64,000 bases of DNA from Daphnia pulex. Lineage: Eukaryota; Arthropoda; Branchiopoda; Diplostraca; Daphniidae. The stretch's first letter is position 1; each line of letters opens with the position of its first letter. The stretch spans positions 10,912,001 through 10,976,000 of the forward strand of contig NC_060024.1 of the NCBI RefSeq assembly GCF_021134715.1. Reading direction: 5' to 3'. Below the pieces are notes generated by a model, which was given only the letters and a program-made list of their open reading frames with translations, was not told the DNA's origin and ran no database searches. This document shows positions 40,633 through 52,833 of this stretch, in pieces. The position numbers were made by a program, and so were the translations under genes.

Positions 40633-43600
40633 TTAATCTTTGACGAGAGTCTTCCGTGTCATATGGCCACGGAAAGAGGCTTGTATTTTAACGGCGGCGT
40701 GATTCAGCCCCGGGTCGCTCAAGTCCACGTCCAGCTCCTCCTCGTTCGGCAATGGGCTCTGCGTTCCAACCAATAAAAATTTCATTTTTATAACAAGCGC
40801 GTGATAACCGGATCATCATTTTTTTAAATATTCACAAGCATCGTAAGAGGATTATGACGACATGATTATTACAGCTGTGCGTGCGCGCATTACTACCTTG
40901 GATTGAAGCTTCTCCATCTCCTTAGTAATCTCGCCGTCGGTCTTGCTCTTCTCCGCCTGTTTTCTGGCCATATGACCACGGAAGGAGGCCTGGATCTTGG
41001 TGGCGGCGTTCATCAAGTCTACCGGAATACATTTCATTCAGTCGTTAGTTTATTGTATCAATAGAAAACCAAAAAAATATATGTACCCAAATCTTGCTCG
41101 AGTTCAGCGGGATCCATTGTGTCCAAATCCATTTTTATTGATTGGCGGAAGGCTTGTTTTTACGTCAAAGTAGTTGGTTGTTGTTGTTGCAAATCCGCTG
41201 CTGCTGCCGGTTGCTGTTGAGGTGGTGGTGGTGGTGCTGTCGGCGCCTGAGGTTTCGGATAAGTTCCCTTCTTCTTTTTGCCCGGTTTACCACCCGGACC
41301 GTAAAGTTCCTTCTCCTTTTTGTCTGCCAAATCACGACGTGTCTGGTAGCCCCTGTAGAAGGCCTGGATCTTGACAGCTGCGTCTTCTTCGTCGGCTAAG
41401 CAACAGTGCCCTGCGGCTGAATCTTCGACGTTGGCTGCAAAAGTTACAGAGAATTTTCTAATTAACCGCCAGTAATTATAATCCAGCCTTGCCGGAATTT
41501 AAAAATAAAAGAGAACAGACAATAACCAAGATTTTTCCCTGGGCAAAAAAGGCCCAGGAGGGTCTAATGTCGAAAGAAAAAAAAAAGATGAAAGACGCGG
41601 CCAGCAACAACAGAATGTTTTCTACATACAGGCTGCTGCAAATCTTGTAGATACCTTGAAGGTATATTATATAGCATACATACTGTACAGCACATATGTA
41701 ATATAACAGAGATGGCGAACACTTATGGATAAGGGTCGGCCATCTTTGTTGTACCAAGATCAATATAGGACAAAAGAGGAAACGAGAGATTTCTCATCTT
41801 ATCCAGACTGTATGTACCCTCATACTAGGCACACACACATTGCGATGTTGGTCTAACAGAGTCACCCCTACATACATATCTATTCCAGCAATGTAATATC
41901 GTTGCATCACATTCATATTTGTCGACACAAAAGTCGTGTCCTGAAAACATTTCGGTAAAGGAATTCCGAACTCGCATCAAAATGAATTTTTGAAAATCCC
42001 GCGCGGTTGGTTTGATACAACTTTCATAATTCTTCGTTTTGCATAGGCAATGGGCACGTTTGTGAGTGTGTCTATTGTCTTCGATCCCGGCCGGCTCTCT
42101 TTTGTGACGAGGCGTCCGTCATGTCCCTTTCAACATTGTCTAATTGCTTTCCGCTTTTCTCCATGGATATAGAAACGACGATGGCGGCGGAGGCGGCGGA
42201 ACAATATCCCAATCGCAATGCCACAGCAGCAGCAGTTTCTATGAATATGTACAGTAGGCTAGACACTAGGAAAATGGGATAGAGCATCCGTCAACGCCCC
42301 AAAAAGAGCCCTACTCCTTTTTGCATGCTACATTATTACCATGTAATAATATGCACGCGCGTCGAGTTTAGCTACGTCGGGAGAAAATAAGAAAGAAGCT
42401 GCTGCTGTATGTACAGTCGGCCTCTTATTATTATATCCGCCAGTGTAGCGCGTCACTAGCGCCCAACATCAATAAAGACGTCGGCTGTTTGGGAGGGAGG
42501 CGAGTATTTTATTTCTGTTTTTTATTTCCAGCTGAGTCAGGAGGTAATCAACAGAGAGTCTACGTGATAATACGCTCCATCAGCGGGAACTTTATTGTTT
42601 CCCGCGGTGCAACTTCCATTCGGAGAACCAAGACTTTTTTGGGCGGAATTAAGCGGAAATGAATCGATAAGAATCGATAAACTTTGCAAAAATAAAAAAA
42701 AGGTGACCCAGTTTATTTCTATAAAAGTATTCCCCCCGGAAAAAGATGATATAACATTGTAGTTTCTGGCGGTATGTATAAAAATATAAGGTCAGGTGTA
42801 TAAAGTATAGGGAAGCGAGCCTCGATTGATCCAACAAACTGGCGAGGACTATTTCTAAGAAGGTCTAGCTGGATCCCCCCCGTTTTACTGCATGTACGGT
42901 CTCCCACACACACACACATATATAGCGGAGCACGCAAAACCCGGCTTTGTTTGATTAGTTCAAACATGGCCAACTACAATATAAGCTGGAAAGGAAAGGG
43001 GGGCTATATAACACACTATATAGGCATATACCATCAAGGTGTATTATAGTTGCTGGTGCTGCTGCTGCTGCGGTTCCCTACGGATTCTTAAGTCTACATT
43101 TTGCGTCTTCCTTGATGAATTTCTGTCAATAATTCACAAAGTAGATGTGAAACCTTTCTCATTATTAATCTTCTTCTCTATCGTAAAAAGAAAAAGGAAA
43201 AGAAACAAGAAAGTGAACTTGAGAAGATGTTGCTGTTTGGTCGCCTTGGTCTAATATTTGCCAAGTTCTGATAACGAGCCCAGAGGAGTTTGGCTGATGC
43301 TCCGGCGATTTCTCTCTCATAATATCACACACGATCAAAGGGATGGATGGATAAAAGCGGGTCTTGTTTAGTTTGATAGGTCGCCTGCCTGTGTGTGTCT
43401 GCGCCATTTTTTCCAACTATAGTCGGAACGAATGAACGCTGGTTCAACGGGTTTGATGGAAAGGACCAAAGCGCGGCCGGCCGAGCGGGCTATATATAAA
43501 TATAGATGGCCTCAGCACGGAGGAGAGAGATGAATCAAATCCGATTAAGATCAGTGCCGGTTATATACTAGTCAATGAAGGTTGGCAAAATCCCGCCGAC

Positions 43601-49913: not shown

Positions 49914-50720
49914 ATGTTCGCCCTGGTAAGTTTTATTTTTTTTTTTTTCAATTTATCTTTCATTGTATTAAAACGGATTGAATTGAAATGTGTGTAGATT
50001 TTCGTTGGTCTTTGCATCGTTCGAGTCCATTCATACGGTTACCAACAACCGGTGCAGTACTACCTCCAGCCGGTGCAATACCAGCAACCGGTTCAGTATT
50101 ACCAACAGCCGAGTTACACAACGGCCAAGCCTTATTACCCCAGCAGCAGCAGTAGCTACTACACCACGACTGCCAAGCCTTACTACCCCACAACGACCTA
50201 CCCCACAACTGCTTACTACAGTACGACCTACCCAACAACTTCTTACTACACCACCAAGGCCTACGAAACGCCAGCGGCCTATCAACAGCCGACCACAGCT
50301 GCCTATTACCAAACCAGCCAGGCCTACTACGAGCAGCAGCCGACCTACACTACACCGGCCTACTACCCCGACAACTACGACGCCAATGAAAACGTAAGAA
50401 ATCCATTGACATTCAGATTGACATTTCTGTGTATATAACTCATCACGCAACTTGTATGTTCTTAGGGATGGTACAACTATGCGTTCAAGTTCAACGTCAA
50501 CGATTACGGCAACGAGCAATCGAGGAGCGAAACTCACGAGAATTCCATCACCAGGGGCCAGTACACTGTCAGTTTGCCAGACGGTCGCAAACAAATCGTC
50601 AACTACGAAGCCGACCAGAACGGCTACAGGGCTGAAGTCTCGTACGAGCCGGCCGGCAGCAGTCAGTACAGCGACACTGAGAATTATTACAGCACGTCAA
50701 AGTATGGATCATCCCAGTAG
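49914..50720 (+). CDS. RR-type cuticular protein, Tyr/Thr/Gln-rich, 220 aa
   Basis: This is a secreted exoskeleton protein predicted to bind chitin through the Rebers-Riddiford domain (chitin_bind_4). Exons are 49914-49925 (four codons, MFAL), 49998-50393 and 50466-50720. The signal peptide MFALIFVGLCIVRVHS spans the first intron, a common arrangement in arthropod cuticle genes. Residues ~20-135 are Tyr/Thr/Pro repeats (YYTTKAYETPAAYQQP). The C-terminal RR domain begins WYNYAFKFNVNDYGN and contains GQYTVSLPDGRKQIVNYEAD followed by NGYRAEVSYEP. A polyA signal lies at 50906-50911. It is the only + strand member of the cluster and its RR domain is C-terminal, unlike the next two genes. Confidence 0.9.
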
Positions 50721-51921
50721 TATAGCAGCTATAATATTAACCGGAACGTGACCCGCATAGTCCCGCGCACTTGTACAATTTTGACACTGTTCCCCCTCAG
50801 AACGCCGGAAATTCTTGCCCGTCTGCTGCCAGCAACTTTCACCTCTTGTGTTTATGATCAACTTGTGTAACCTTTGATGTCTCAACTCTATATATGTGTG
50901 TGTATAATAAAGCAGTCGTTGTATACCAGCAGCTGGACTATATTGGAGTCGTAAACACGTTGGACTATAGTGTACTTGTATAAGGACGTATAAGCAGCAG
51001 CAGACGGGGTATATCGTCAATTTAAAATAATATGGTACTACTGCTACTACTGCTGGCTCTGGATGTATAACGAGGACGGATGGGAGGCCAGCTGGAGCTG
51101 TTGCCCGGTGGATAGAGGCCAAAGGGGAAATGTCCAGTACTACATGTCGAGGATGTCACATGTATATACGTTCGCATATACCTAGATCGTAACCGTAAAT
51201 CCCTTCCGGCCACCATATCTTTCTCCCGGTTTGGTTCATTTCTGCTGTTGGGATCTTGCTGGCTATACATATTACTTTAAGAAAGCATACATACAGACTA
51301 TTAGCAAATAGTAATAATGCTGATGGAGTTATAAAAGGAAAAGCAAACAGGGGAGGAGCTGGATAATCGTCAATCAACTTGATGCTTTGGGGGAGGCGCA
51401 ACTTTCAAACAAACAGAACATCGATCATTAGACTTCAAACGGAATAATTGCAGCACTTCATTCATTCTTGAACTCTTCATGTATGTATAGGCTGAGAAAA
51501 GGCTCTTTCCACGTGACGCCCATGCCAACGGGAAATTCGTCACGAACGCTCGACTGATCGATATAATTCCGCCGAGTAGCAAAGTATAGAGTGTACCCAA
51601 CCAGCCCAAATAAACTATTATCAAAGTTTAAAAAAAAATAAACAAACATGGCTCTTTCGGGAATATCTTAATCGATTTACTACCTTATAATACAAGGCTA
51701 TATGTGACTATGTGGTAGATGGAAAGTTACGATGCCATTAAATGAATAAATTCCAGTTATCATATTTTTCACTTTTCAATTGACAGTTTTTTCTCGGTTG
51801 AAGAATAAATTTGCAATACAAATATTGAAGCTCATAAATCGATTGTATTTGTAAGGAAAAGTTTCGATCAAAAATATTTGTCACTTGAAATCACCAAAAT
51901 GGTCGTTAAATAACGAAATGT
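50721..51921. other. Spacer between the first two cuticle genes (convergent)
   Basis: It contains the 3' ends of two convergent genes, including the AATAAA at 50906-50911 for the + strand gene. No further gene is seen; the frames are short and low-complexity. Confidence 0.5.
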
Positions 51922-52833
51922 TCAATTGAAATCGTCGGTCCGTTTGCCGTCGAATCTCCTCGACATTTTCATGCCGAACGAAGGCGGAGATGATTTGAAG
52001 CGTGAGACTGTCGAGTCGATTCGAGTTGCATCGTCGGTTTGGCCGACAGCAGTCATCATTGTGAGATCGCTGGTCATTTTACCGGCGACAGAAGCAGCAG
52101 CAGCGCTGGCCGACATTGCTGCTGTCTCTTGAGGGGAACGAAATCGTTCACCTCCTCCTCGTGTCCGATTACTGCGCTGTCGGGATCGACTGCTCGAGCT
52201 CGTCCGGCTATCGATCGGCTCCGTCTGCTGCCTCTGCTTCTCCCGTCGGTCATCAACCGGTTCCTGGACAGCCATAGGAGCGCTAGTGGTCGTCGTTGTA
52301 GTGGTTGATGTCGTGGTGGTGGTGGTGGGAGAAGTTGTTCGCGTCCGGCTAACGGTGAAGGAGCGGCCGTTTGACTCGGTTGATGAAGACACCACCAACG
52401 CGGGATTCTCGACGCCAACCTGGACGTACTTGACAGTGGCTTTGTAGCCGTTAGGTCCGGACGTGTAGGAAACGGTCTGCAGACGGCCGTCCGGCAGTAG
52501 GACCTTGTATTGACCGACGACTTCTTGGCCGTCGCTCGATTCCGCTTTCGATTGCCTCACCCGAGTTTCGTTGACGGTCGGCTCAGCCTCCACGGCGTAA
52601 GAATATTGGAAAGGATCGCCCTTTTTTGGAATCGAATAATCGTAATCAGTTCATGTCAACTTCTTCTAAATAATATAGAAGAATTTTCATTTTACCTGGT
52701 CGAATTCTTCGTCCGGATCCGGAGTGGTTGTCGTGACGAATTTAGACTTGGATGAACTGATGTTGGCTGCGTTGCTGTATGTAGCAGCCAACACCACCAA
52801 CGAAATGAATAGGAACTTGGCTGACTGCTGCAT
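51922..52833 (-). CDS. RR-type cuticular protein with Ser/Thr/Arg-rich tail, 278 aa
   Basis: Exon 1 (52833-52696) encodes the signal peptide MQQSAKFLFISLVVLAATYS and a short acidic spacer ending DPDEEFDQ. Exon 2 (52620-51922) starts GDPFQYSYAVEAEPTVNETR, followed by the RR core VVGQYKVLLPDGRLQTVSYT and NGYKATVKY. The C-terminal half is unusual for a cuticle protein. It has a Thr run near residue ~155, then an Arg/Ser/Gln-rich basic segment (SSSSRSRQRSNRTRGGG). The core supports a secreted chitin-binding role; the basic tail may mediate cross-linking or other interactions. A minus-strand TATAAAAG at 52930-52937 lies upstream, though at a looser spacing than for its neighbours. Confidence 0.88.

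Follow-up and report, generated by a model that had tools for sequence, protein, structure and literature searches.

An igloo-like gene in Daphnia pulex with an in-frame cassette exon that carries an internal stop and a candidate second start

The locus described here raises the question of which proteins an igloo-like gene can make when an in-frame cassette exon carries a stop codon and, a short way downstream in the same frame, a start codon in strong context. GAP-43, neurogranin and PEP-19 control the amount and location of free calmodulin in neurons and the speed of its calcium uptake. The window, that is, the whole stretch of DNA analysed (C8:10912001-10976000, 64,000 nucleotides), belongs to a genome assembly of 133,188,837 bases in 13 contigs and carries the gene on its minus strand. 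The features of the gene are listed below by their position in the window; exon edges were set by GT/AG and the reading frame only.

46828-46708, minus strand: coding part of exon A from ATG1 onward, 121 nt, with a GTAAGT donor at its phase-1 end
41434-41087, minus strand: exon B, the cassette, 348 nt, phase 1 at both ends
41386-41321, minus strand: first IQ motif (IQ1), in exon B, reading KIQAFYRG
41162-41160, minus strand: TAA stop of the A-B product, in the context ACG TAA AAA
41159-41133, minus strand: nine codons without a stop, KQAFRQSIK, from the TAA up to ATG2
41132-41088, minus strand: ATG2 and an acidic segment, in frame into exon C, with a second strong ATG at 41117
41018-40897, minus strand: exon C, phase 1 to 0, with the second IQ motif (IQ2)
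40758-40633, minus strand: exon D, phase 0, with the third IQ motif (IQ3) and a TAA stop

Read along the minus strand, exon B consists of one IQ motif, a basic, proline- and glutamine-rich tail, the TAA and the ATG2 segment. The exon arrangement put forward in the original prediction is real. Recomputation of coordinates and frame returned the same 348 nt with phase 1 at both ends, and since exon A ends in phase 1 and B is 348 nt long, B can be skipped or retained in frame. Introns A-B, B-C and C-D measure 5,273, 68 and 138 nt. Skipping of B had been said to keep the frame and leave a two-IQ protein, and A-C-D does read as 369 nt (122 aa plus stop). Inclusion of B had been said to give a one-IQ protein ending at the TAA, which is what was found, the product being 131 aa long. 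The nine open codons and the strong-context ATG (41132) described beyond that stop were also recovered, and translation bore out that the ATG2 frame runs into C and D past two further IQ motifs, giving a product of 97 aa. The predicted pI values are 8.4 for A-B and 8.8 for A-C-D, both basic, and 5.2 for the acidic ATG2 product. All products are expected to be disordered. The one-IQ, tethered two-IQ and soluble two-IQ members of the proposed product set thus proved possible by sequence, while the fourth, a three-IQ protein made by stop-codon readthrough, was unsupported.

The gene appears to exist in one copy and to belong to the GAP-43/neurogranin/PEP-19/Igloo ('calpacitin') kind, each of three exons carrying an IQ motif. 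An IQ motif (PF00612) scored above the Pfam cut-off in each of exons B, C and D. The exon A product starts with MGCADSKS, and we take its MGC start to be a possible dual-lipidation motif (N-myristoyl Gly2 and palmitoyl Cys3). Exon B has one copy in the 133,188,837-base assembly, and a genome-wide query with C-D returned its own exons C and D together with parts of an unrelated many-IQ frame on another contig. That frame (C4:8907881-8912725, minus strand) runs uninterrupted for 1,633 aa, would encode a tandem many-IQ protein and holds 11 of the 21 IQ matches in the genome. The name igloo was taken over from the original prediction. The likeness to Drosophila igl, on which Neel and Young (1994) is reportedly the founding paper, was drawn by description, and the IQ motifs here fit that description. 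In extracts of two papers, Igloo is described as an invertebrate GAP43-like gene (PMC6917273) and is assigned to the calpacitin family with GAP-43, neurogranin and PEP-19 (PMC9618489). With its IQ motifs, acidic flanks and MGC start, the gene would fit among the calpacitins.

Comparison with solved structures showed how far the motif itself can be relied upon. Matches were at the level of the IQ motif only; the best were IQ proteins of flagella and sperm (radial spoke protein 23, CFAP91 and Sp17), and the neuromodulin and neurogranin IQ constructs ranked after them with E values of 0.001-0.002; the IQ motif alone therefore discriminates little. The sequence KIQASFRGH in the IQ motifs of exons C and D is common to the neurogranin and GAP-43 constructs, and the IQ matched GAP-43/neuromodulin structure 4e53 with an E value of 0.0011. 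The exon A products, likewise, have a cysteine near the N terminus; they differ from GAP-43 in their Gly2-Cys3 start, and the gene differs in that tethered and soluble products would both come from it. For PEP-19 (PCP4), residues 6-36 of exon D matched residues 27-57 of chain 2n77_B with an E value of 0.027. The spans are equal, and by this placement L9, V11, L13 and P16 of exon D fall on Phe30, Ile32, Met34 and Pro37 of PEP-19, which are named as anchor residues in an extract of PMC5122967. The PEP-19 register of the acidic flank holds for exon D only: the flank formed by ATG2 and exon C is acidic but out of register, and an ATG2-C query against the solved structures gave no PCP4/PEP-19 match. 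The ATG2 product also differs from neurogranin and PEP-19 in having two IQ motifs.

The three IQ motifs differ from one another in one respect that may matter for regulation. Those of exons C and D read KIQASFRG, with a serine, whereas that of exon B reads IQAFYRG, without one. The serine within the IQ motif of GAP-43 and neurogranin is a target of PKC. Because IQ1 lacks the serine found in C and D, the one-IQ product may escape PKC control.

The acidic neighbours of the motifs bear on what the segment after ATG2 might be. Acidic residues were counted over the 19-20 residues before each IQ dipeptide, in windows picked after the sequence had been seen, and came to 6 of 19 for IQ1, 6 of 19 for IQ3 and 6 of 20 for IQ2 when it is reached from ATG2, against 1 of 20 for IQ2 after A-C splicing. 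The ATG2 segment was read as IQ2's own flank because its acidic count equals those of IQ1 and IQ3, which suggests that it is the native flank of this motif. Such a flank has a described effect in PEP-19: according to an extract of PMC5122967, the acidic sequence beside the IQ motif raises the calcium on and off rates of the calmodulin C-domain up to 40-fold, and PEP-19 without it still binds but gives no increase in rate, the acidic part being required for the effect in cells.

The frame beyond the stop was weighed as coding or as open by chance. Its 24 codons, from the stop to the exon B donor, would stay open in 42% of sequences of the same composition and in 44% when the gene's own intron is used, so that the open frame alone is no evidence (P 0.42). 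Codon usage was more informative. The 32 long ORFs used to train the score (11,247 codons) came from the window and twenty 10-kb background stretches. The ATG2 segment, over the 15 codons that this test spans, scored +5.0, with P 0.005 against open noncoding stretches and P 0.0063 against 3,802 ATG-started, stop-free noncoding stretches of 45 nt; other training cut-offs gave P 0.0047 (n=3,377) and P 0.0072 (n=4,010). Six of its 15 residues are acidic (P 0.0034 against the same 3,802 stretches). The nine codons before it, KQAFRQSIK, scored -1.6 (P 0.66 against 2,000 open noncoding stretches), a comparison of low power at this length. The power of the score is low in general, since P is no lower than 0.105 for exon C and 0.051 for exon D, both of them surely coding. 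The sequence from ATG2 onward looks coding, and the break between non-coding-like and coding-like sequence falls at ATG2 itself. A separate start would be favoured over readthrough on these data, since KQAFRQSIK is not coding-like but the ATG2 segment is.

The reading that we favour, with a probability of roughly 0.45, is that ATG1 gives rise to lipid-anchorable products of the gene and that transcripts which start internally encode a soluble protein like neurogranin and PEP-19. Joined to exon A, exon B would close a lipid-anchorable one-IQ protein of 131 aa. A second class of transcript would have its 5' end in the 5.3-kb A-B intron or within exon B; in this class the first 302 nt of exon B would be an ATG-free leader, and its last 46 nt would supply the start codon and the acidic flank for IQ2. 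The product would be a soluble two-IQ protein of 97 aa with a pI of 5.2, of the neurogranin/PEP-19 type. A-C splicing would instead give a lipid-anchorable two-IQ protein (122 aa, pI 8.8) whose IQ2 is stripped of its acidic flank. Membrane tethering, the number of IQ motifs and the presence of an acidic neighbour at IQ2 would then depend on which transcript is made. Within this reading, the separate start at ATG2 is moderately supported by the codon, acidity and context data, and we infer the transcript classes, the internal promoter, the lipidation and the calmodulin effects. Restart by the same ribosome after an ORF of 131 codons is unlikely, and a separate transcript start would be the simpler route to the ATG2 product.

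The strongest rival, although an unlikely one, is that exon B is an alternative last exon. The A-B transcript would be polyadenylated after the stop and encode the one-IQ protein, the downstream frame would be open by chance, B would never be joined to C, and A-C-D would be the other isoform. Two hexamers are relevant to it.

41139-41134, minus strand: AATAAA that could serve as a poly(A) signal, 20 nt beyond the TAA
41054-41049, minus strand: AATAAA inside the 68-nt B-C intron

Exon B may be a mere last exon because these two AATAAA sequences follow the stop and its donor is weak. Both lie within 141 nt after the stop, and at least two were present in 3.2% of 12,282 background windows, but at least one was present in 15%. 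The donor, TGG|GTACAT, counts against the B-C joining that the favoured model needs; it fell in the bottom 4% of a crude splice-site model built from this genome (39 usable ORF pairs, of which 27 introns were kept), a noisy model whose verdict on the donor is only a hint because the three true acceptors fare no better in it, each likewise falling in the lowest 4%. The open frame, being unremarkable by itself, suits a chance origin. What this rival does not account for is that exon B ends at a GT in frame with C, and that the ATG2 segment is coding-like and acidic and restores the acidic flank of IQ2.

A less probable account still is that of a decayed frame, in which a continuous three-IQ protein was the ancestral form, the TAA reflects a recent loss, polymorphism or misassembly, and the segment beyond it is a remnant. 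The joining of the three IQ exons in one frame is consistent with this, as is the acidic flank that each IQ motif would have were the frame continuous. A recent single stop, however, predicts the reverse of the coding pattern seen, in a comparison of 9 codons with 15.

The surroundings of ATG2 bear on how translation might begin there. At both ATG2 (41132) and the ATG five codons on (41117), position -3 is A and position +4 is G; of 8,495 background ATGs, 6.9% share this context. Upstream, two features were noted.

41626-41133, minus strand: 494 nt directly before ATG2 that hold no ATG in any frame
41674-41666, minus strand: TATA-like CTATATAAT, some 48 nt ahead of the stretch that lacks ATGs

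The ATG-free stretch is made up of 192 nt of intron and 302 nt of exon B. Of the 8,456 intervals from one ATG to the next in 264 kb, 7 were at least 494 nt long, and 0.05% of 3,951 GC-matched windows lacked an ATG. Against its own composition (first-order Markov) the stretch as a whole had P 0.032, its exon part had P 0.26, or P 0.16 by synonymous permutation, and its intron part had P 0.06-0.12. The leader is less striking for this reason, as the signal weakens once composition or protein is held fixed. A role for CTATATAAT as a promoter element is speculative: 17 TATA-like sites lie in 8.2 kb, or about 2.1 per kb compared with 2.8 per kb in the background, which is no enrichment, and the core-promoter scan of the locus yielded no pair of TATA and initiator. 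The A-B intron was also searched between 41.5 and 46.7 kb for another first exon with coding sequence, defined as an ATG with an open frame and a GTRAG donor in phase 1, and none was found.

ATG2 could also be reached on a dicistronic A-B-C-D mRNA, if ribosomes that miss ATG1 scan on to ATG2 and make the soluble two-IQ protein, and we consider this very unlikely. In spliced A+B the 420 nt from ATG1 to ATG2 hold no ATG in any frame, which makes ATG2 the next ATG; shuffles, however, gave this absence P 0.12-0.14. ATG1 is itself in strong context, having the -3 A and the +4 G, so few ribosomes should bypass it. A stop upstream of splice junctions invites nonsense-mediated decay, and this mRNA would have two junctions after its stop, the first 73 nt on.

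Equally slim odds are given to translation of A-B-C-D through the TAA, which would make the tethered three-IQ protein that the original prediction offered as a further product. Beyond the TAA the frame continues open across C and D, and in an extract of PMC5100048 readthrough is conjectured to be abundant in insects and crustacea. The same extract reports an 8-mer to be enriched within 250 nt before insect readthrough stops (PMC5100048), and this sequence occurs 36 nt before the stop here.

41206-41199, minus strand: CAGCAGCA, the readthrough-associated 8-mer, upstream of the stop

Because shuffles predict 1.4 copies of CAGCAGCA in the window and 24 are present, it is a poor marker of readthrough here. 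The candidates in that source are usually TGA stops, with enrichment for a following C (PMC5100048), whereas the stop here is TAA followed by A. Folding of the 131 nt around the stop (41070-41200) revealed no unusual RNA structure, with a z of 0.50 and 137 of 200 shuffles folding at least as well. RNA structure after the stop is present in a minority of readthrough cases. Together with the codons after the stop, which are not coding-like in their low-power test of nine codons, the TAA-A context and the lack of RNA structure further disfavour readthrough, and it was rejected as the main reading.

Two hidden introns were judged by inspection and set aside, one from the GAC|GTAAAA donor at 41164, which is in the wrong phase and reads another frame of C, and one whose acceptor would be the single AG found after the stop and before ATG2 (acaag, next base 41152), which is in frame and has no pyrimidine tract; as for a structured RNA, no Rfam family reached gathering level in the window.

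With a separate transcript start retained as the preferred source of the ATG2 product, the locus can be set beside known systems. It would share its economy with genes that have an internal alternative promoter together with a start codon inside an exon and with the dicistronic and readthrough loci of the fly, in that one exon ends one product and leads another; the present locus differs from them in being known from sequence alone. FlyBase is credited with 159 dicistronic pairs and 328 readthrough genes in an extract of PMC4528330, and the main texts of PMC4528330, PMC5100048 and PMC3840789 make no mention of igl. The literature matches listed included no work on this locus or on an igloo gene of Daphnia. 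The broader proposal, that a single arthropod gene, and within it a single exon, does the job of separate vertebrate genes, making both GAP-43-like proteins with a lipid anchor and a soluble one like neurogranin and PEP-19, and places an acidic, calcium-tuning flank on or off IQ2, is tentative and, in our estimate, rather doubtful. If it were true, the effects of tethering and of the flank could be separated in one gene by removal of an exon or of a start codon, and the result would bear on whether the functions of a single ancestor came to be shared out among the vertebrate genes.

None of 14 control genomes contained the IQ family, and NCBIfam gave no match for two of the products. Viral, phage and genome-contig collections yielded no relatives; these are not meant for animal genes and are silent on conservation. 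Elsewhere in the window, two regions (~51920-52830 on the minus strand and ~49930-50720) were seen by eye to have secretion-signal-like starts, a cuticle-protein-like RR core and Thr/Ser-rich tails.
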